Positions 38,960 to 62,507 of a stretch of 64,000 nt of DNA are shown one piece after another. Under the pieces are notes generated by a model. The model saw nothing but the letters and a program-made list of their open reading frames with translations. It made no database searches and was not told the DNA's origin. This stretch comes from Lachnospiraceae bacterium. GTDB lineage: Bacteria > Bacillota > Clostridia > Lachnospirales > Lachnospiraceae. Position numbers and translations under genes: made by a program. The stretch spans positions 49,194-113,193 of the forward strand of contig JAAWAV010000048.1 of NCBI GenBank assembly GCA_022792335.1, in the 5' to 3' direction. How positions within the stretch are numbered: the first letter of the stretch is position 1; each line of letters begins with the position of its first letter.

Positions 38960-39323
38960 TTATCCCGCCCCCTCCAGCTCTCTTCGCAGCTTAAGAAGCG
39001 CTCCTTTTTCAATCCTGCTCACATAGGAACGGCTAATCCCCAGAGTCGCCGCCACTTCTCGCTGCGTATACTCCCGATTTCCAAAGAGTCCATACCGCAT
39101 GGAAATCACCTGCTTTTCTCGGTCGCCCAGAGCCGTTTTATAGACCCCGTACATTCTACAAATATCCTGTGCCATGGAAATTTCCTCTGTCACGTCCCGG
39201 CCTTCCGCTTCAATGACGTCCACGAGACTGATGGCGTTCCCCTCCTTGTCGACGCCAATCGGTTCGTAAAGTGAAACTTCACGTCCCTTTTTCCGTTCCG
39301 CCCGGAGAAACATAAGGATTTCA
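38960..39323 (-). CDS. sigK: RNA polymerase sporulation sigma factor SigK, C-terminal part (split by skin-like element)
   Basis: This holds about 120 residues of SigK, the late mother-cell sigma factor that directs coat and lysis genes. The visible part begins at E-I-L-M-F-L-R-A-E-R-K-K and has V-S-L-Y-E-P-I-G-V-D-K-E-G-N. It ends with region 4: D-R-E-K-Q-V-I-S-M-R-Y-G-L and the helix-turn-helix T-Q-R-E-V-A-A-T-L-G-I-S-R-S-Y-V-S. As it stands, the frame opens at an ATG at 39388 that overlaps the recombinase stop as ATGA. That would give a fragment without region 2. Joined to 46778-47041, it makes a 209-aa intact SigK in frame. Confidence 0.93.
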
Positions 39324-39337
39324 TTTGCTATCCTCTC
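39322..39337. other. Left attachment site of the skin-like element (sigK C-terminal side)
   Basis: On the plus strand the core CATT (39322-39325) is followed by the element's inner arm TGCTATCCTCTC (39326-39337). This arm is the exact reverse complement of the arm at the other end of the element. Confidence 0.85.
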
Positions 39338-39384
39338 CCCAATGCGTTTTTGATGCACGGAGGGGGTTCGTTTCTCTGAAAGTT

Positions 39385-41151
39385 TCATCCCTCCATATCG
39401 TCATACTCATAATCCACGTCGAAAAAGTCAGCCAATTCCTCTGTTTCGTCATCATCTTTGGTATAGCCGGATGCAACAGCCGCAATTTTCGGATACTCAA
39501 TTTCATCATCTTTCACACCGAACAGGATGATATGAGCATTGACGCCATCCCATACTACCTTACGTATGATGGTACGAATGGCAGCGCGTTTCTGTTCAAC
39601 AGTCATTTCATCAATACCGTCTTTGAAGATAGTTAATAATTGACATAGCAGCTCAAATTCAATATTGCTAAGAGCACGTTGTGATGTCAGGCCTTCCAGT
39701 TCCTGAATACGCTGTTTCAAAAACTGATATTCTCCGTCCAGTTGTTCAATTCGTTTAGTTACATGGGCTTTTGCAGGGCTCTCGCCCATATCTACAAGAG
39801 AGTCTACCAGAGAATTGATTTTCTTTTCTATTTCTGCTTTTTTCCTCCGCATATCATCCAAATGTTGTTCATAGTCCGTACGATTACCGGTGTAAAATCT
39901 GCGGCTTTGTTCCAACTGTGCAATAAAAGTATCTTTGTCCTCTGCAAGCATTTTAATCTGCTCCATCACCGCCACATCCAATGTGTTGCCATTGGCATTT
40001 TTATTGTTGCATAAAGTTCTCTGGCTGTGTTCCTTTATTTTACAGACATAAGTGTAAATCACCTTGCCATCCGCTGTTTTGCGTTTACTCATTTTCGGAT
40101 ACATACGATCACCGCAGCTACAGAATAACAAGCCTGTCAGAAGTGCTTCATTACTGCGTGGCTTTCGGAAAGATTTAGATTTGTTGCGCTCTAGAGACTC
40201 TTGAATCTGTACCCACACCCTACCCGGAATCAGACCCGGATGTCTGCCGACTGATACAATCCATTCGCTTGGTGGAAGGTATTTTGTAGCTCTGCCTTTT
40301 TCCTGATCGGTACGGTTGTAGGCCATAATACCGTGCTTGTTGTCAAAGTCATCTTTCTCTGAGAACAGATCTGTGTCATGCTGAATAAAGAAATTATGGG
40401 CCTCTTCATCCGCAATCATATAAACAGGATTCTGTAAAATAGCTTTCACAGAAAAACGGGTAAAATATTTGTTATTCTTTGTCTTAATCCCCTGCTTGAT
40501 TAAAGCAGCTTCCGTCAAAGTCAGTGAATCTGTTTCTATATATAAGTCGTAAATCATTCTGACAATATCAGCTTCTTCCGGAATCAGCTTCAGCTTACAG
40601 GCTTTCTTAGATTTCCCATCAATCGTGATGCTTTTGACGGCTTCCGAGGTATATCCGGTAGGTGTTGTTCCTCCAAGCCAGCGTCCTGTCTTTGCCAGTT
40701 CGTGCATATTATCTCGAATACGTTCCGCAATAGTTTCTCTCTCCAACTGAGAGAAAACAGATGCAATGTACATCATAGCCCGTCCCATAGGAGTGCTTGT
40801 ATCAAACTGCTCTTTAATAGATATAAAAGCAATATCCAGACGATCCAACTCTTCAATCAAGCCGGAAAAGTCACTGATATTTCGACTGATACGGTCAAGA
40901 CGGTAAACGATGATTGCTTTGAATTTTCGCTTCCTGGCATCATCCATCATTTTTTTGAAATCCGGTCGGTTTAGATTTCCACCGGAAAATCCCTCATCTT
41001 CATAAATAACACTGTTTTCTACAGAGGAGTCTCCATAATGCACACGAATATATTCCTTACAGAGTTCTACCTGGTTGCCGATGCTTTCACCTTTTCCTGT
41101 ATATTTTGATTTTCTGGAATAAATTGCTATGGCATCTTCCTTTTTCTTCAT
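39385..41151 (-). CDS. Large serine recombinase (probable skin excisionase)
   Basis: This 588-aa site-specific recombinase has the catalytic domain at the N-terminus: A-I-Y-S-R-K-S with nucleophile Ser12, then E-D-E-G-F-S-G-G-N-L-N-R-P-D-F and Y-R-L-D-R-I-S-R-N. The 'recombinase' DNA-binding domain is next (P-T-G-Y-T-S-E-A and K-A-I-L-Q-N-P-V-Y). A zinc ribbon (L-F-C-S-C-G-D-R-M) and a long coiled coil follow. It lies right beside the left attachment site, as usual for this family. Its most likely job is excision of the element from sigK in the mother cell. AGGAGG precedes the ATG. The stop overlaps the frame of the sigK C-terminal part. Confidence 0.94.
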   Translation of the reverse strand: MKKKEDAIAIYSRKSKYTGKGESIGNQVELCKEYIRVHYGDSSVENSVIYEDEGFSGGNLNRPDFKKMMDDARKRKFKAIIVYRLDRISRNISDFSGLIEELDRLDIAFISIKEQFDTSTPMGRAMMYIASVFSQLERETIAERIRDNMHELAKTGRWLGGTTPTGYTSEAVKSITIDGKSKKACKLKLIPEEADIVRMIYDLYIETDSLTLTEAALIKQGIKTKNNKYFTRFSVKAILQNPVYMIADEEAHNFFIQHDTDLFSEKDDFDNKHGIMAYNRTDQEKGRATKYLPPSEWIVSVGRHPGLIPGRVWVQIQESLERNKSKSFRKPRSNEALLTGLLFCSCGDRMYPKMSKRKTADGKVIYTYVCKIKEHSQRTLCNNKNANGNTLDVAVMEQIKMLAEDKDTFIAQLEQSRRFYTGNRTDYEQHLDDMRRKKAEIEKKINSLVDSLVDMGESPAKAHVTKRIEQLDGEYQFLKQRIQELEGLTSQRALSNIEFELLCQLLTIFKDGIDEMTVEQKRAAIRTIIRKVVWDGVNAHIILFGVKDDEIEYPKIAAVASGYTKDDDETEELADFFDVDYEYDDMEG

Positions 41152-41170
41152 TTCACATCCTCCTCATCCC

Positions 41171-41197
41171 GATACGTGATATGTGATATATGATATG
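41171..41197. promoter_or_regulatory. TGATAT repeats upstream of the recombinase
   Basis: GATACGTGATAT, GTGATATA and TGATATG follow each other just before the recombinase start. On the minus strand this reads as repeated ATATCA words that overlap where its promoter must be. It may be an operator or a sporulation-type promoter region; the binder is unknown. Confidence 0.4.
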
Positions 41198-41246
41198 CTA
41201 CTATAACATAACGTAACATTGAAATAAACAGATTGGAGGTATCTCG

Positions 41247-41321
41247 ATGAAGTCATTGTTTGAAGAAATAGGCGGAAGCATGAAAGGCCCGTGGCCAAAT
41301 GGAGATAAACAACATGGGTGA
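41247..41321 (+). pseudogene. Truncated TnpV-like gene remnant (24 codons)
   Basis: A perfect ribosome site (GGAGG, 8 nt before the ATG) opens a frame reading M-K-S-L-F-E-E-I-G-G, then S-M-K-G-P-W-P. It stops at codon 25. As I recall, M-K-S-L-F-E-x-x-G-G is the start of TnpV, a protein of about 120 aa carried next to TnpX-type serine recombinases in clostridial transposons. The rest of the gene is missing and replaced by the ABC permease end. Confidence 0.55.
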
Positions 41322-41325
41322 TGAA

Positions 41326-43230
41326 TTACAACATAAGTGTATCGTCCTTAATCGCTTCTACAAGGTTCATATTGCATATCTTTTTACCACCTAAATAGTA
41401 AGCCAATGCAACAAAACCAATGACTGCTGTAAAGAGCAGAATTGCAGGAACCAACGGCAAACGCTTGCCAATAAAATCTTCTATGGTAATTCCTCCAGCA
41501 TCAAGCATGAATGCCATCAAAGGGATATTGATTACCAGGATCAAGAAAATGGGACGGAGTGCAACGATAGCGGCTTCCCAAGCCAAAATCTTTGCCGCAC
41601 CTTTGGGAGTTAAACCAACTGCAAAGTATCTTGCAAATTCACGCTTGCGCTGATGAATCTGCCCCAAAGTCGATGCAAAGATATTGGCAAGGCCGATGCA
41701 AGTCAGGATTCCGGTGAACAGATAAATAATCATTCGCAAACCATGCTGTATCTGCATCTCTTCTGCAAGTTCCTGCACACGACCTTCCAAAACGTAGTCC
41801 GGATATGCTTCTAGCAAGCCCTTCAATCTTTCCTCAACTGCATCGTTTTTGCTTTCGTCCGTCATTTTAATAGTGTAAATGGTTTCCTCAGCATTCAGAT
41901 TGAAACCGAGGGTCGCATAATAGCTTTCGGGCATGACAAGTGTCAACGCATACTGAGCTAGTTCTTCTCTCAGTACAGGCAGAGTAGCCGCAAAAGCGGA
42001 AACAGGAATGTCCTTTCCATTTACGTTCAAAATGATTTCTTTGCCCTCGTTCAAAAATGGTACATACTGACGATCTGTTCTCTCTGAATTGACACTATCC
42101 CAAATAAGATTGACAGCAACCACATTGGCACCGTTTGCATCACCACGGTATTCTGCGAAGCTTTTGTCATCTAAAATGAAAATCGGCACTTTTATGTTAT
42201 AAGCACCTGCTTCGTTCTCTATGAAACTGCTGTTGAGTTTTTCAAGGCTCAGTTTCCGGACATCGTCACTCAGATAATCAGCCGGGATTTGGGTGTTGTT
42301 ATTTACCATTCGATGAACAATGCAGCCTGTTACATCTTCTGTATCTCTAATACCCTTCAGCAAATCTTCATCATAAGCACCTCCCTTGGCGGTGATGAGA
42401 AAATCCCAGTTATTCTTATAACGGTCAAAGTAGGTTCTTTCTGTGCTAAGGCCAGACACACCAAGCATATTCAGAATTGAGATACAGGCAAACACCGCCA
42501 AAAGAATGGACATTGTACCAACTCTCATAGCCTTACGTCTGACAAACAGGGACTTGCGTGCCATCTCTCCATAAATTCCGAAAATAGCGGAATGAATACG
42601 ATATTTCTTCATTCTCTTGATAACAGGCTCAGCTCCATAGTGAATTGCTTCTAATGGAGTCATGCGGCTAAGTTTTCTTGCGGGAATCCACGCTGATACC
42701 GAAGCAGTCAGCATTGAAAATCCAAATGAGCCAAAGAACACGATAGGATGATAGGTAATGGTCAAGGTATAATCACGCAAATTAGCAGTTGAACTGATAA
42801 TAATGCTCATAAGCGCCCAACATAAGCCAATGCCGATGATATTCCCAGCGATGATAGCAGGCAAAGACAAAACAACTACTTCATTGACAAGTGTAGATTT
42901 GATTTGTCGAGAGGTTGCACCAATGCTTTGCAAAATGCCTAACTGATGGATGCGATTGGTCATAGTCGCTGCAAAAGCGTGGTGAATCATCATAATAAGA
43001 GCAAGGCTGGCGATGGTGAATACTGCGATGTAGGCGATGACTACCGGGGTGAACTCTACCCCAGAAGTTCCATTTGCGGCAACGGTTTGATTAACCTGAT
43101 CTGCCCACAGATTATAAAATAAACCACTAACAAGGCTAAGCATCATAGCTGCCAAAAAGGAGATTATCATAATGAATCTATTGCCGGTTTTATTATTTTT
43201 TATATAACTGGCACTATAAGCATTCCACAT
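41326..43230 (-). CDS. FtsX-domain ABC transporter permease (peptide-antibiotic type, skin cargo)
   Basis: This 634-aa membrane protein has two FtsX domains (I-H-Q-L-G-I-L-Q-S-I-G-A-T-S-R-Q and Q-I-H-Q-R-K-R-E-F-A-R-Y-F-A-V-G). Between them is a large extracellular stretch of about 230 residues. Size and layout match permeases of the BceB/MacB-like group that remove or sense antimicrobial peptides. The ATG at 43228-43230 follows AAGGAGG. It is the second gene after its ATPase (13-nt gap) and ends next to the TnpV remnant. The substrate is inference. Confidence 0.85.
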   Translation of the reverse strand: MWNAYSASYIKNNKTGNRFIMIISFLAAMMLSLVSGLFYNLWADQVNQTVAANGTSGVEFTPVVIAYIAVFTIASLALIMMIHHAFAATMTNRIHQLGILQSIGATSRQIKSTLVNEVVVLSLPAIIAGNIIGIGLCWALMSIIISSTANLRDYTLTITYHPIVFFGSFGFSMLTASVSAWIPARKLSRMTPLEAIHYGAEPVIKRMKKYRIHSAIFGIYGEMARKSLFVRRKAMRVGTMSILLAVFACISILNMLGVSGLSTERTYFDRYKNNWDFLITAKGGAYDEDLLKGIRDTEDVTGCIVHRMVNNNTQIPADYLSDDVRKLSLEKLNSSFIENEAGAYNIKVPIFILDDKSFAEYRGDANGANVVAVNLIWDSVNSERTDRQYVPFLNEGKEIILNVNGKDIPVSAFAATLPVLREELAQYALTLVMPESYYATLGFNLNAEETIYTIKMTDESKNDAVEERLKGLLEAYPDYVLEGRVQELAEEMQIQHGLRMIIYLFTGILTCIGLANIFASTLGQIHQRKREFARYFAVGLTPKGAAKILAWEAAIVALRPIFLILVINIPLMAFMLDAGGITIEDFIGKRLPLVPAILLFTAVIGFVALAYYLGGKKICNMNLVEAIKDDTLML

Positions 43231-43243
43231 GGCGAACCCCTCC

Positions 43244-43924
43244 TTAATGAGTTTTCTCGTCAGAAACGATCTGGCCATCCGCAATTCTGAGGATTCTGTC
43301 TGCCTGCAACGCAATGTTTTCATCATGCGTAATCACGATCAGTGTCTGCCCGTATTTTTTGTTAGAGTATTTCAGTAATTCCATGATCTCTTGACTGCTC
43401 TTACTATCAAGATTTCCGGTAGGTTCATCAGCCAACACCAGCGCCGGCGCATTCATAAGCGCTCTGCCGATAGACACACGCTGTTGCTGACCGCCGGAGA
43501 GCTGACTCGGCAAATACTTTTTGTGGTCTGCAAGTCCAAGAGCTTCAAGCAGTTCATTTACACGTTCATCATTTACTTTCTGTCCATCCAGTTTCAGCGG
43601 CAAAGTCATATTCTCTACCACATTCAAAATGGGGATAAGATTATAGAACTGATAAATCAGTCCGACTTGACGGCGGCGAAAAATCGCCAACTGCTCTTGA
43701 TTCTTTTTATATACATCTTGTCCGTCAACAAAGATATGACCGGAAGTAGGTTTGTCCACTCCGCCAATCAAATGCAACAGTGTAGATTTGCCGGAACCGG
43801 ACTGCCCGACAATCGCAACAAACGCTCCCTTTTCAACGTTAAATGACACATCATTCAAAGCCTGCACTTGATTGTTGCCTTTCCCATAGATTTTACAAAG
43901 ATTTTCTACTTGTAGTATTTCCAT
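43244..43924 (-). CDS. ABC transporter ATP-binding protein (LolD/BceA-like, skin cargo)
   Basis: This 226-aa ATPase is full length for the family. Walker A is G-Q-S-G-S-G-K-S-T-L-L-H, the Q-loop is L-I-Y-Q-F-Y-N-L-I, the signature is L-S-G-G-Q-Q-Q-R-V-S, and Walker B is L-V-L-A-D-E-P-T-G-N-L-D. It works with the FtsX permease downstream. A TATACT -10 (43961-43966) and a regulator-type palindrome lie upstream. It diverges from the response-regulator gene pair, so the element holds a two-armed, sensor-controlled transporter cassette. Confidence 0.93.
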   Translation of the reverse strand: MEILQVENLCKIYGKGNNQVQALNDVSFNVEKGAFVAIVGQSGSGKSTLLHLIGGVDKPTSGHIFVDGQDVYKKNQEQLAIFRRRQVGLIYQFYNLIPILNVVENMTLPLKLDGQKVNDERVNELLEALGLADHKKYLPSQLSGGQQQRVSIGRALMNAPALVLADEPTGNLDSKSSQEIMELLKYSNKKYGQTLIVITHDENIALQADRILRIADGQIVSDEKTH

Positions 43925-43960
43925 GAGTATTCTCCTTTTTGATATATTTATTTAGGATAC

Positions 43961-43966
43961 AGTATA
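43961..43966 (-). promoter_or_regulatory. -10 box of the skin ABC genes
   Basis: On the minus strand TATACT has no good -35. The regulator-type palindrome lies 33 nt upstream of it, which suits an activator-dependent promoter. Confidence 0.45.
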
Positions 43967-43998
43967 TCAATTTCAGAATCCAGGTACATGACTTTTTC

Positions 43999-44014
43999 AT
44001 TACAATATTGTAAT
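43999..44014. promoter_or_regulatory. Palindromic response-regulator site upstream of the skin ABC genes
   Basis: ATTACAATATTGTAAT is a perfect 16-bp palindrome. It contains TTACA-ATAT-TGTAA, which matches the TNACA-N4-TGTAA consensus known for BceR-type response regulators. It lies upstream of the ABC ATPase promoter and 460 nt from the response-regulator gene, and probably binds the regulator encoded in the element. Confidence 0.65.
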
Positions 44015-44131
44015 AATAACCAACATTCTTTAAAAAATTTGTAGCCCTGTGCTTTTAGTGTGTGGCTATTCACCTGCGCATATTGATTTGAATGTGTTGA
44101 TATGGTACTATAAAACAGAAAAGTGTATTAG

Positions 44132-44401
44132 GTTGCAAAAATCTTCCCCAGGGGTTTGCTTTATGGTGGTATTCCTCTTGTTGTTCTTCGTGAAGGTGCC
44201 AGAGAAAAAGCGGCGGCATTACAAAATTTGTTCAGCGAAATATATATTAGAGATATTTTCAAACGTAACCGCATTAAGAACATTGGATAACTGAAGGATC
44301 TGTTGAATATCCTTTCTTCCGCCATTGGTTCTCTTACAAATCCTGAAAAGTTAAAGAACACTTTTAAAACTGTAAAGAAGTCAAAATTCATAGAAAATTA
44401 G
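44132..44401 (+). pseudogene. Relic of a DUF4143-type AAA ATPase gene
   Basis: The plus-strand frame reads L-L-Y-G-G-I-P-L-V-V-L-R-E-G, then L-F-S-E-I-Y-I-R-D-I-F-K-R-N-R-I-K. A TAA stop (44288-44290) follows, then L-L-N-I-L-S-S-A-I-G-S-L-T-N-P-E-K and a TAG at 44399-44401. The G-G-I-P...V-L and E-I-Y-x-x-D-I...R-N-x-I pattern is that of AAA ATPases with a DUF4143 C-terminus. There is no start, and the N-terminal ATPase half is missing, so this is a broken remnant. Confidence 0.7.
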
Positions 44402-44473
44402 CCGTTTTTGTGTTATAGTTTTGTTTGTGAAAGTGTGAATGATAAAAAACAGCTATTAAGTGAAGATAATATT

Positions 44474-45151
44474 ATGCCTAAACTTTTAATTGTAGAAGAT
44501 GATGCAGATATAGTGGAAAATCTTTCAACGTTATTGGAGAATGAAGGATACTCTGTTTGCCATGCTTCTGATACAAAAGGTGCATTAAATAAATTGCATA
44601 CAGAAAATATCGATCTTGTGCTTCTTGATATTACTCTACCTGATGGGAATGGGTATTCAATATGTACCACTGTTAAGCGTTCAACAAACGCACCGGTTAT
44701 TTTTCTTACTGCGATGACAGATGAATCCAGTATCATTACAGGTTTTCAACTTGGTGCAGACGATTATGTTACTAAACCATTTAAGCCTATGGAATTGATT
44801 TATCGTGTACGAAACGCTTTGCGGAAAAGCGGAAAAGCGCCCTCTGTATTTCAGGTTGGAGATTTACATATTGATGCCGCAAAAGGGACTGTGACGAAAG
44901 CTGGATCTGAAATCATTCTTTCTGCACTGGAATACCGATTGCTTCTGGTGTTTCTGAATCATTTTGGCGAAACGCTTTCTCGTCGAGAATTGTTACATGA
45001 AATATGGGATGTTACCGGTACAGGTGACTATGTCAATGATAATACGTTGACTGTGTATATCAAACGACTTCGTGATAAGATAGAATCAGATCCTGCCAAT
45101 CCTGCAATTTTAAAAACGGTTCGCGGCCTTGGATATAAAGTAGGTGATTGA
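44474..45151 (+). CDS. OmpR-family response regulator (skin cargo)
   Basis: This 225-aa regulator has a receiver domain: acidic pocket L-I-V-E-D-D-A-D, phospho-acceptor Asp in L-V-L-L-D-I-T-L-P-D-G, then L-T-A-M-T-D-E and D-D-Y-V-T-K-P-F. A winged-helix DNA-binding domain follows (L-S-A-L-E-Y-R-L-L and V-Y-I-K-R-L-R-D-K-I). It lies directly before the kinase gene (1 nt gap) and opposite the ABC genes it probably controls. The ATG at 44474 is chosen for its conserved M-P-K-L-L-I-V-E-D-D start; the ribosome site is weak (AAGTGAAG). Confidence 0.92.
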   Translation: MPKLLIVEDDADIVENLSTLLENEGYSVCHASDTKGALNKLHTENIDLVLLDITLPDGNGYSICTTVKRSTNAPVIFLTAMTDESSIITGFQLGADDYVTKPFKPMELIYRVRNALRKSGKAPSVFQVGDLHIDAAKGTVTKAGSEIILSALEYRLLLVFLNHFGETLSRRELLHEIWDVTGTGDYVNDNTLTVYIKRLRDKIESDPANPAILKTVRGLGYKVGD

Positions 45152-45152
45152 T

Positions 45153-46157
45153 ATGAATTTATTCAGAAATAAAGAAATCAAGGTATTTCTTTTCGTCTAT
45201 CTACTTCTTACCATCGCTGCATCTGCGGTTGCATCGTTCATAAGTGTTTGGGCAGTAGTTTTAGTAGTTGTTATTTGTGCGATAAGTAGTTTCCTTTTTA
45301 TACTATTTACAAGAAAACGCTATCAGGCTATTTTAGACTTGAGCGCCCACGTTGACAGTATTTTGCACGGAGAATACAATGTCAATCTGGTTCCTGATGA
45401 AGAAGGGGAACTTGCAGTTCTCAGCAGCGAATTAAGCAAAATGACCTTGCGCTTGCGGGATCAGGCTGAGCGTTTAGAGAAAGATAAGCGTTATCTGAGC
45501 GATTCTCTTGCAGATATTTCCCATCAATTACGAACACCGCTAACATCCATTCGTATGATTGTATCCCGACTTTCAAGTGAATACCAGAGTGTCGAACAAC
45601 AAGCCAATATTAGAAAAGTAGATACCTTGTTAGACCGAACAGGATGGCTGATTTCTACACTCTTAAAAATTGCAAGATTGGAATCAGGAACTGTAAAGTT
45701 TTCTGAAGAACCTATAATGGTGGAAACATTGATAAATGACATAAAGGAGCCTTTAGAAATACTTATGGACATAAAGGACATTCGACTGTCGTGTAAGATA
45801 AAAAATAATGCTTGTTTTATTGGGGATCGTTTTTGGGCTGCGGAAGCCATTGGAAATATTTTGAAGAATTGCATTGAGCATTGCTCAGACGGTGAAAAAC
45901 TGGAAATACACTCATCAGAGAATCCGTTATACACAGAAATCATTATTTCAGATAATGGGGTGGGATTTGAAGAAAAAGATATCCCTCATCTTTTTGATCG
46001 CTTTTATCGTGGCAGCAATGCCGGGAAAGAAAGCGCAGGAATTGGTTTGAATCTTTCCCGAATGATTATTTCGAAGCAAAATGGTGTTATTACGGCTACA
46101 AATAAAGCAAGTGGCGGAGCGCAATTTACAATACGATTTTACAAGGGAGCTGTATAG
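45153..46157 (+). CDS. Intramembrane-sensing histidine kinase (skin cargo)
   Basis: This 334-aa kinase has two N-terminal membrane helices joined by a very short loop, so there is no external sensor domain. That is typical of kinases that sense through a partner ABC transporter. A linker follows, then the H-box D-I-S-H-Q-L-R-T-P-L-T-S. The ATPase domain has N-box I-G-N-I-L-K-N-C-I-E-H, D-N-G-V-G-F and A-G-I-G-L-N-L-S. AGGTGA precedes the ATG at 45153. Its H-box is the ordinary type rather than the W-V-H-Q-V-K-T-P form of BceS. Confidence 0.9.
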   Translation: MNLFRNKEIKVFLFVYLLLTIAASAVASFISVWAVVLVVVICAISSFLFILFTRKRYQAILDLSAHVDSILHGEYNVNLVPDEEGELAVLSSELSKMTLRLRDQAERLEKDKRYLSDSLADISHQLRTPLTSIRMIVSRLSSEYQSVEQQANIRKVDTLLDRTGWLISTLLKIARLESGTVKFSEEPIMVETLINDIKEPLEILMDIKDIRLSCKIKNNACFIGDRFWAAEAIGNILKNCIEHCSDGEKLEIHSSENPLYTEIIISDNGVGFEEKDIPHLFDRFYRGSNAGKESAGIGLNLSRMIISKQNGVITATNKASGGAQFTIRFYKGAV

Positions 46158-46270
46158 GCTCTCTCGTTGTTTTATTAACAAAAACCGGATATTCTGAAGT
46201 ATGAAAACAGCCTTTATATCGTGGGGAATAACGGACAGCTTCTCTCTCATAGACTGAAATACCGAGGGAG

Positions 46271-46495
46271 GTGCGTGGTATCGCAAGAAAGAGTGTTCCA
46301 ATCAATGTGATTGTCCATTATCCAAAAACCATACAAGGTCAGCATGAATTAGCAGAGCGTGTTGCCGGTGTCCACGCAAGCTTAGTCTATCAGCATATTA
46401 AAAAACTGAATTGTCCTTCCAATCAGAAGATACAGCTACTGGATGCGGTTATTAACTCCGCATCCATGGAGAAGGCAGGTAAACAAACCTCCTAA
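46271..46495 (+). CDS. Small element protein with a decayed start codon (candidate directionality factor)
   Basis: The frame encodes R-K-S-V-P-I-N-V-I-V-H-Y-P, then H-E-L-A-E-R-V-A-G-V-H-A and N-C-P-S-N-Q-K-I-Q-L-L-D-A-V-I. I recall similar small proteins beside large serine recombinases in clostridial elements. GGAGGTG (46267-46273) is spaced 8 nt from ATC at 46280-46282, where the start would be expected. The only nearby in-frame start, GTG at 46271, overlaps the ribosome site. So the start codon may have mutated from ATG to ATC. It lies nearest the right end of the element. Confidence 0.5.
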   Translation: MRGIARKSVPINVIVHYPKTIQGQHELAERVAGVHASLVYQHIKKLNCPSNQKIQLLDAVINSASMEKAGKQTS

Positions 46496-46763
46496 AGTTT
46501 GAACGCCTGCTTTTTCTATGCTTTAATTTTATCTTTGAAATACTTATTCCATGAATGTCCATTCGCTTCTGATCAGATTCCCATACACGAAGGAAGCGAG
46601 GGGCTATCAGCCGGAAACTACGGGTATACATCGGTGCATACCTCACATAGCCATCCGAAGTGGAGCAAAGGATGTAGATGTTCCCGGAAGCCTGTTCCCG
46701 AATACGCCGTTTTGGTTCTTTTCTGCTCTGGGGGGATTGATTTGGAACTGTAAACGTATCTGT

Positions 46764-46777
46764 GAGAGGATAGCATT
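46764..46777. other. Right attachment site of the skin-like element (sigK N-terminal side)
   Basis: On the plus strand the inner arm GAGAGGATAGCA (46764-46775) is followed by TT. The core CATT is at 46774-46777. The arm is the exact reverse complement of the left one. Confidence 0.85.
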
Positions 46778-47041
46778 ATCGATACATTTGGCCGCGTACG
46801 TCCCAAGTCTGTTGGAGCGATCCGGGTTAAACGTATCCACTGCTTTGATCAGCCCGATGGTCCCGATAGAGATCAGATCTTCCATCTCATAATCCGTCTG
46901 GCTGTACTTTTTTACAATGTGGGCCACCAGACGCATGTTTCGTTCAATCAGTACATGTTTTGCTTCCTGTTCCCCCTGTTTAAGATGTTCTAAAAAAGTT
47001 CTCTCTTCGGAAATCGTCAGGGGCTTTAAGAAAGTCTTCAT
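46778..47041 (-). CDS. sigK: RNA polymerase sporulation sigma factor SigK, N-terminal part (split by skin-like element)
   Basis: Exactly 88 codons of SigK are present: M-K-T-F-L-K-P-L-T-I-S-E-E, then N-M-R-L-V-A-H-I-V-K-K-Y, D-L-I-S-I-G-T-I-G-L-I-K-A-V and Y-A-A-K-C-I-D. These are sigma regions 1.2-2.4. Without excision the frame runs on into the element and stops at 46643. The ATG at 47039-47041 has GGAG 9 nt upstream. Compared with B. subtilis pro-SigK it starts after the pro-sequence, and a TAG stop lies in frame just upstream, so no pro-peptide exists. aspS lies upstream on the same strand. Confidence 0.93.
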
Positions 47042-47070: not shown

Positions 47071-47098
47071 TAGTCTATGCCGGGACAGCTTTCGCAGT
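47071..47098 (-). promoter_or_regulatory. Candidate mother-cell (SigE/SigK) promoter of sigK
   Basis: On the minus strand CATAGACTA (47071-47079) matches the CATAnnnTA -10 of SigE and SigK promoters. The AC of a GCAC at 47097-47100 is 17 bp upstream, as in SigK -35 elements. A start about 22 nt before the sigK ATG would result. Confidence 0.5.
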
Positions 47099-49086: not shown

Positions 49087-49361
49087 ATAAAAAATGCTGT
49101 CCGTCCTCAGAACTTCTCTCAGGACGAACAGCTTTCACTCTCCGCGGTACCACCTGACTTACTGCCAAACGGCAGTCCCCTCATGGCTGTCAATTCACGC
49201 TTGACCCACGACGCACCTACTACCCGCTCCCGCAGGGTTCAGATTGCAGCTCAGAAGTGTTATTCATACGGATTCATTCTGCGGGGTTTCCACCATCTCC
49301 CGCTCACTGGAAGCGATCTTCCGTACTACTTCTCTCCGTCATCGCCTTTTTCTATTTATAC
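49087..49361 (-). promoter_or_regulatory. T-box riboswitch upstream of aspS
   Basis: On the minus strand the T-box core GGTGGTACCGCGG lies near 49142-49154. A terminator (GCTGTTCGTCCT / AGGACGGACAGC, 49096-49132, with a T-run) follows. Stem I is closed by AGAAGT / ACTTCT (49328-49333 and 49253-49258), with AGTA on the 5' side. The codon on the 3' side that fits the specifier position is AAC (49259-49261), followed by A. AAC is an Asn codon; an Asp GAC is not seen there. Confidence 0.88.
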
Positions 49362-62379: not shown

Positions 62380-62497
62380 AATAAAAACGCCTGGGAACTC
62401 TGTCTGATTCCTTCAGGCGGCCCAGGCGGTCGGCTCATATTGGCAATTCCGTGCTCCCCGTAGGTGCCCCTACCTTTCCGCCAGTCGCACGGCCGTT
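62380..62497 (-). promoter_or_regulatory. ZTP (pfl) riboswitch with terminator upstream of purH
   Basis: On the minus strand GACTGGCGGAAAGGTAGG (from near 62490), CGGGGAGCACGGAATTGCC and GCCGACCGCCTGGGC match the ZTP/pfl motif. A terminator follows. The CGCCTGGG of the aptamer (62421-62428) pairs with CCCAGGCG (62388-62395), and TTTTTATTT follows. The aptamer and terminator share the same segment, so ligand binding prevents termination. Confidence 0.88.
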
Positions 62498-62507
62498 TAC
62501 TATACTG

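Follow-up and report, generated by a model that had tools for sequence, protein, structure and literature searches.

Most of what is known of skin elements concerns single prophage-like insertions in Bacillus and C. difficile. Those of B. subtilis and C. difficile are already described, as are phages that reside in sigK and the gin element in gerE. Experiments on the C. difficile skin, reported in PMC5025042, assign the recombinase to a sigma-A promoter and make its recombination directionality factor (RDF), CD1234, depend on sigma E and SpoIIID, with a SigK that has no pro-sequence. Elements of the gin type need not have prophage-like gene content. Here we analyse a 64,000-nucleotide stretch of a Lachnospiraceae genome (assembly GCA_022792335.1, contig JAAWAV010000048.1; hereafter the window), in which the late sporulation gene sigK lies on the minus strand in two parts around an insert of 7,452 bp (39323..46774). 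We confirm that sigK is split by a skin-type element, as an initial annotation of this DNA had proposed. Going beyond that annotation, we find that the element belongs to a host-hopping family dedicated to sigK, in the fuller members of which the attP site falls within the recombinase gene.

The 5' part of sigK (46775..47041, minus strand) comprises 89 codons, encoding SigK residues 1-89 with the Sigma70_r2 domain, and the 3' part (38960..39322, minus strand) comprises 120 codons and the stop, with Sigma70_r4. Against the NCBIfam model TIGR02846 (spore_sigmaK) they occupy positions 25-111 and 112-226, abutting with zero gap or overlap. The gene starts at 47041 and breaks inside the recombination core at 46777-46774; its parts are collinear, and their 267 and 363 nt add up to 630 nt and abut in frame. 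An insertion within sigK that leaves collinear parts able to abut in frame is what marks a skin element, and this is what the locus displays. The initial annotation had given an element of about 7.45 kb, a large serine recombinase beside one end and a joined gene of 630 nt, all of which agree with our results; its division of the 630 nt was correct in sum, while the ends it gave for the two parts differ from ours by 3 and 1 nt, an effect of the shared core. It had also read the junction as C-I-D-N-E-I-L-M, as in intact SigK proteins, and proposed looking for an uninterrupted sigK in relatives. Such a gene exists in a genome of the same genus (G095, locus L131), where K-C-I-D-N-E-I-L-M stands at the insertion codon. 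The first 24 positions of TIGR02846, which we take to be the place of the pro-sequence in other SigK proteins, are missing from the window's SigK and from this uninterrupted copy alike. An intact sigK elsewhere in the genome had been named as the finding that would speak against a split gene; no second SigK was found in the window's genome, which is 87.68% complete, so that an intact copy could lie in the missing part (the search yielded 14 Sigma70_r2 places and three matches to the N-terminal part of SigK, SigK-N, at E<=1e-12, one SigK among them). SpoIVA and SpoIIID are encoded in the same genome, a fragmented draft metagenome bin of 61 contigs, and the host is likely a spore-former.

The attachment (att) sites locate the crossover. 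The core dinucleotide AA, which sits within AATG, is found in attL at 46776..46777 and in attR at 39324..39325, both on the minus strand. Joined to each other, the element's ends read GAGAGGATAGCAAATGCTATCCTCTC, a dyad centred on the AA in which 16 of 20 arm positions are paired. Among 25 complete elements (the window's included; the repeat places L119, L122 and L128 were dropped), 20-nt arms are paired at a mean of 15.2 of 20 positions when centred on the AA, against 3.4-6.0 when shifted by 1-6 nt. At two loci, L045 and L061, attL and attR mismatch at the base adjoining the AA, which agrees with crossover at that dinucleotide.

Recombinase relatives in named genomes number 407, and the best 80 were analysed. 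The C-terminal part of SigK (SigK-C) begins exactly behind the core in 73 of these 80 loci, isolates included, and at every one of the 73 its reading frame stays open for 95 codons or more, as would be expected if sigK were still used. Cultured commensals with the family include Mediterraneibacter agrestimuris DSM 111629 (L046), Sellimonas caecigallum SW451 (L062) and Catenibacillus scindens DSM 106146 (L061). The split gene, the att sites, the in-frame abutment and the recombinase recur in the same arrangement in dozens of genomes, and the skin-type reading of the initial annotation extends to the 24 other complete elements, which are built alike at the same codon. Recombinases merely 37-56% identical (L120, L123-L125, L127) occupy this codon as well. 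Could the junction be a misassembly of the metagenome bin? A draft in 61 contigs invites the question, but the same codon behind the core at 73 of 80 loci, in isolates too, together with the dyad centred on AA, can hardly be chance or an assembly artefact, and we regard this explanation as scarcely credible.

Seven of the 80 loci have no SigK-C at the core. Contig ends lie too close to judge in L063 and L072, the element sits in sigK in inverted orientation in L107, SigK-N is cut at the core, upstream, in L108 and L112, and the recombinase lies outside sigK in L074 and L110. The genome of L110 has a SigK-N match in a 217-aa open frame; that of L074 (G315) has no SigK-N match better than 6e-12. 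At L074:11600-11830 a family recombinase and an attR half stand outside sigK in a genome with no good SigK match, an off-target integration, perhaps in a lineage that no longer sporulates. In three further loci (L052, L055, L089) the recombinase is not the last gene, and 1.4-4.5 kb separate it from SigK-C. A search for SigK-N in 299 family genomes gave at least 150 matches, and among those listed 14 had an open frame shorter than 160 aa: reading of the DNA found 11 to be split by an element, one (G205) is one nucleotide short at the core, and the other two are G029 and G090. The 11 split genomes overlap with the recombinase loci (for example, G194 is L045 and G222 is L050), and the genome and locus counts are not independent, because the same genomes recur in both. 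The sigK of G205 (L130:1335-1350) is element-free, the missing nucleotide lying exactly at the crossover core, and may be either an excision scar or a homopolymer error. Plasmid and phage records gave no recombinase of at least 60% identity; of 41 loci of relatives in IMG/VR, only L133 and L134 have SigK-C behind the recombinase, and L135 has SigK-N in opposite orientation. Our conclusion, drawn from sequence comparison, is that this element family is specific to sigK and to one codon of it.

The family also moves. In 15 relatives whose recombinase is more than 80% identical to the window's (82-90%), among them the Erysipelotrichia Holdemania and Traorella, SigK-C is just 41-62% identical to the window's; family hosts as a whole span Clostridia and Erysipelotrichia. 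The nearest host by SigK-C is Fusibacillus kribbianus (80.5%), where the recombinase is 67.4% identical, and the SigK-C data reject the window and the 15 relatives as a single clade (p-AU 9.6e-38). Since the recombinase and SigK-C trees conflict, we favour horizontal spread. Two results weigh on the other side: the recombinase tree does not reject a clade of the window with Fusibacillus (L083; p 0.113), and the identity of the recombinase rises with that of SigK-C across the loci (Spearman 0.50, n=73), which indicates that host descent accounts for part of the family. The trees and identities together suggest a family that moves horizontally, likely between distant hosts, its history being partly host descent and partly jumps.

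From the SigK-N side, the window's element carries an HTH (helix-turn-helix) remnant, orf74, a response regulator, a histidine kinase, a BceAB-type transporter and the recombinase. The remnant (46452..46772, minus strand) is what is left, with the HTH part deleted, of a coding region that in fuller members carries the recombinase frame on across attP. The candidate RDF gene orf74 lies at 46271..46495 on the plus strand, which also holds an OmpR-type response regulator (44477..45151; PF00072, PF00486) and a sensor histidine kinase (45144..46157; PF00512, PF02518). On the minus strand lie the ATPase of an ABC transporter (43244..43924; PF00005) and an FtsX-domain permease (41326..43230; PF02687), presumably BceA-like and BceB-like respectively. 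These four genes are the cargo. The large serine recombinase (39385..41151, minus strand; 588 aa) has Resolvase, Recombinase and zinc-ribbon domains over the whole of their models, and stops 62 bp short of the element's end. It did not reach the NCBIfam cut-off for the SCCmec recombinases CcrA/CcrB/CcrC (best 146.6 bits against 900). A Pfam scan of the element's genes gave no relaxase family. As side observations, the gene cluster beside sigK (aspartyl-tRNA synthetase) is preceded by a T-box leader (49117-49351, minus strand), and positions 62413-62498 (minus strand) hold a ZMP/ZTP riboswitch.

The recombinase frame is open through the core in 65 of the 73 loci, always in the same phase, and 52 recombinases end on a TGA stop made from the element's last base and the GA of sigK. 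The frame resumes at the SigK-N end of the element, with at least 90 open codons in 12 of 25 elements and 203-215 in six of these, and with conserved protein text; in the one element scanned for them (that of L071) it contains two HTH stretches. As the frame is continuous at both ends, a recombinase-HTH protein of about 815 aa is predicted for the joined state. Proteins of this kind occur in a public protein collection: P0121, P0122, P0123, P0125 and P0126 have 803-815 aa, P0124 is shorter, and two more known from a table listing, P0127 and P0128, have 789 and 810 aa. The six that were read share E-(D/N)-S-K-C at the join, preceded by W-G in five. P0121, from a contig of 2,675 bp, is 100% identical to the integrated recombinase of L050 over 609 aa and 100% identical to the SigK-N-side end of the same element over 205 aa. 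Because P0121 matches both ends of L050's element, one and the same element is seen integrated and joined. In the sequences of the fuller members, then, attP is placed within the recombinase gene, and integration would sever a double-HTH domain of about 205 aa, which we suggest is a regulator able to distinguish the joined state from the integrated one.

Several observations temper the step from this joined frame to a free circle. The joined state of P0121 could come from a circle, but a tandem array would give it equally. An 18-mer across attP was found in one of 397 family genomes and there, by eye, it looks like the hairpin of a terminator next to a tRNA, with no element present; a 20-mer had no match among the viral contigs of IMG/VR. 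Separately, P0126 (on a 401,826-bp contig) joins a recombinase of the window's type to a different type of HTH, as a tandem of two elements would. We had considered an HTH gene with only a start of its own, and set this aside given the continuous frame of the natural joined proteins; several relatives do have an ATG at codon 8 of the HTH frame, so that a start of its own after integration is possible. In L062 and L070 no ATG, GTG or TTG precedes codon 35 of that frame, and the stretch there resembles that of the other subgroup. The conserved stretch beside SigK-N, at one stage taken for an att arm or a plus-strand gene (orf84), proved to be the HTH region of the recombinase frame.

The window's own copy has no continuous recombinase-HTH frame: the recombinase departs from the family frame before its tail and ends at 588 aa, the tail frame is left behind and the HTH region is internally deleted. 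The promoter before the recombinase (TTTATT-17-TATAGT, 41200..41228, minus strand; sigma-A-like, assigned by eye) is a weaker match than those of relatives. As read from its sequence, the window's element is a reduced family member that cannot make the long recombinase-HTH protein, and with its tail missing, HTH deleted and promoter weak it may be inactive. Since the copy retains orf74, its att sites and the domains of the recombinase, excision is plausible. These features bear on the alternative that a recent insertion merely inactivated sigK, so that sporulation is not completed and the gene is never restored. Movement of the family between hosts would fit such an event, as would the degenerate tail and HTH parts of the window's copy. 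On the other hand, both of the window's sigK parts are open and conserved, and SigK-C is open at all 73 loci; the element has orf74, its att sites and the domains of its recombinase in whole form; and the sporulation genes SpoIVA and SpoIIID remain. We therefore judge inactivation improbable.

Apart from the recombinase, orf74 is the one gene family that we found to be almost universal in complete elements, with 23 of 25 (16 of 18 in a first set, seven of seven in a second). In 18 of the 23 it lies no more than 900 bp from the SigK-N end. Its 306 database homologues gave no named function among the 120 matches listed, and it has no convincing family in Pfam, NCBIfam or PHROGs; the structure predicted for it is a helix pair (mean pLDDT 86). 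The sequences upstream set orf74 apart from the recombinase. An octamer CATA[ACG]A[ACT]T, resembling what we take to be the sigma-E -10 box, precedes 13 of 34 orf74 genes against 0.66 expected by shuffling, and 32 of 43 sigK genes against 0.9, while TTTAC-N17-19-TATAAT, which we presume to be the sigma-A consensus, precedes 26 of 77 recombinases against 0.02 expected, but none of the 34 orf74 and none of the 43 sigK genes; many of the rows in these counts are close kin and so are not independent. In the window, the sigma-E-like promoter GAATAAC-15-CATAGACT (46226..46255, plus strand) stands before orf74, and the identical octamer CATAGACT lies upstream of sigK at 47072..47079 (minus strand). 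The same division of promoters holds between recombinase and RDF in the C. difficile skin, and for this reason, by analogy, orf74 is likely the RDF of the element's recombinase.

A number of results count against this assignment. No orf74 was found in two complete elements (L124, L125), five of the 23 orf74 genes lie away from the SigK-N end, and a fold search with the model gave no PDB match at E<=0.001. The sigma-E-like -10 box is missing upstream of 21 of 34 orf74 genes, the full sigma-E consensus shows a modest excess (29% score at least 12 of 15, against 4% of shuffles), and the octamer also precedes six of 77 recombinases against 1.88 expected. It might be, then, that orf74 is another element protein, such as a regulator, and that excision is triggered by some factor yet to be found, or needs nothing beyond the recombinase. 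The absence of the family from two elements, of a fold match and of most -10 boxes would all suit such a protein; what it leaves unexplained is that no other family accompanies the recombinase in nearly all complete elements, and that the sigma-E-like box is conserved in the orf74 subgroup to which the window's gene belongs. We consider this account rather unlikely.

The reading we hold with good confidence is that the element would excise itself during sporulation by means of its own recombinase, under the control of orf74 and sigma E, rejoining sigK in frame. The excision, its timing, the directionality role of orf74 and the route of transfer are what we infer. The recombinase would be made more generally, from its sigma-A-like promoter, and orf74 would switch it from integration to excision; the sigma-E-like promoter of orf74 would limit excision to the mother cell. 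The element would be cut out in sporulation and sigK rejoined in frame, and, the mother cell being discarded, the germ line would keep the element. A developmental gene may for that reason, because the excising cell is thrown away, be a safe landing pad. In the fuller members each integration would both split sigK and remove the double-HTH domain from the recombinase. This leads to a tentative further model, about which we are more doubtful than hopeful, of a reciprocal gene switch: integration would split sigK and sever a state-sensing double-HTH domain from the element's own recombinase, excision in the mother cell would restore both proteins, the HTH-recombinase would steer what the circle freed at lysis does next, and sigK would serve as a safe pad for exchangeable cargo that ranges from ABC transporters to an aromatic amino acid pathway.

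The cargo does differ from element to element, the 25 complete elements ranging from 3,559 to 27,008 bp. Pfam scans of selected cargo genes covered 14 of them (the window's and those of L039, L040, L045, L046, L051, L052, L061, L071, L080, L087, L089, L093 and L106). AAA_14/DUF4143 ATPases occur in five, and others carry a CNNM/CBS transporter, MFS with GNAT proteins, GH1 with PTS proteins, or an ADP-ribosylglycohydrolase together with a CAT-family acetyltransferase. In PADLOC, the AAA_14/DUF4143 protein among the cargo of L040 matches the candidate family PDC-S01, other matches being weak. The sole cargo of the sigK element at L087:2592-9836 is a 2,415-aa surface protein with isopeptide domains, and the element at L093:1661-9839, in an Oscillospiraceae metagenome-assembled genome, encodes seven aromatic amino acid pathway proteins that reach from DAHP synthase to prephenate dehydratase and dehydrogenase. 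Two of the seven large elements were scanned, those of L071 (16.3 kb, L178) and L039 (21.0 kb, L175); both have RepA_N, an IstB/DnaC-like ATPase and MobA/MobL, with an actin-like protein in addition in L071's, and no mating-pore genes were found among the 19 of their genes scanned. Given RepA_N and MobA/MobL, it is likely that members of this kind move about as integrative and mobilizable elements; the plasmid-like backbone is not present in the window's element. After orf74 in these large elements stands a 768-778-aa NB-ARC/TPR (STAND-type) protein (L175:15555-17858, L178:13257-15590), one of the two having a weak PADLOC match to HamA (E 7e-5). A degenerate prophage remnant, like the B. subtilis skin, would likewise combine a large serine recombinase with a place in sigK. 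Such a remnant is very improbable here: Pfam and NCBIfam profile scans found no phage structural genes in the window's element, which therefore has no prophage-like content, as the initial annotation had remarked of this small element and its cargo; none were found among the cargo genes scanned in the 13 further elements; and both scanned large elements carry plasmid-type Rep/Mob genes.

Set beside the C. difficile skin of PMC5025042 (recombinase CD1231, RDF CD1234), with which it was compared by layout and control alone, the window's locus shares an interrupted sigK with a serine recombinase at one edge, a SigK without pro-sequence, and, as predicted here, a recombinase under sigma A with a small RDF under sigma E; it differs in that its cargo is not phage-like and its family spans Clostridia and Erysipelotrichia. 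The gin element in gerE of Bacillus cereus, as described in PMC5595907, is likewise a non-phage element in a sporulation gene, with a serine recombinase and RDF and likely horizontal spread, but its target is gerE, whereas the sigK family has many hosts, Rep/Mob members and attP in the recombinase gene. The phages of Alicyclobacillus (MMB025) and C. perfringens (phiS63) described in PMC13141910 have the sigK integration site in common with it, but are full-size phages, and the core of MMB025 is TCTC rather than AA within AATG.

What is added is that one sigK codon is the attachment site of a non-phage family whose cargo varies and which shows signs of having passed from class to class. It becomes testable how a mobile element comes to be bound to development, and whether in these bacteria the brake on SigK is excision in place of the pro-sequence. 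The survey of large serine recombinases in PMC10083194 predicts most to be site-specific, and the portion of its text available to us has the word "sporulation" once, in the reference list; among the matches listed in searches of the open-access literature we found none on mobilizable elements that target sigK and none on a serine recombinase of bacteria that is severed when it integrates. The nearest parallel to the latter is the suicidal SSV-type integrases of archaea, in which attP likewise lies inside the integrase gene and integration splits it; the sections of the review PMC8371274 at hand treat self-disrupting recombinases as exclusive to archaea, and the loss of a recombinase domain upon integration is described there for archaeal tyrosine integrases only. 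The SSV-type enzymes are tyrosine recombinases whose two parts are held to be inactive (PMC8371274). The serine recombinase of the sigK family, in contrast, loses its C-terminal HTH alone and keeps its catalytic domains.

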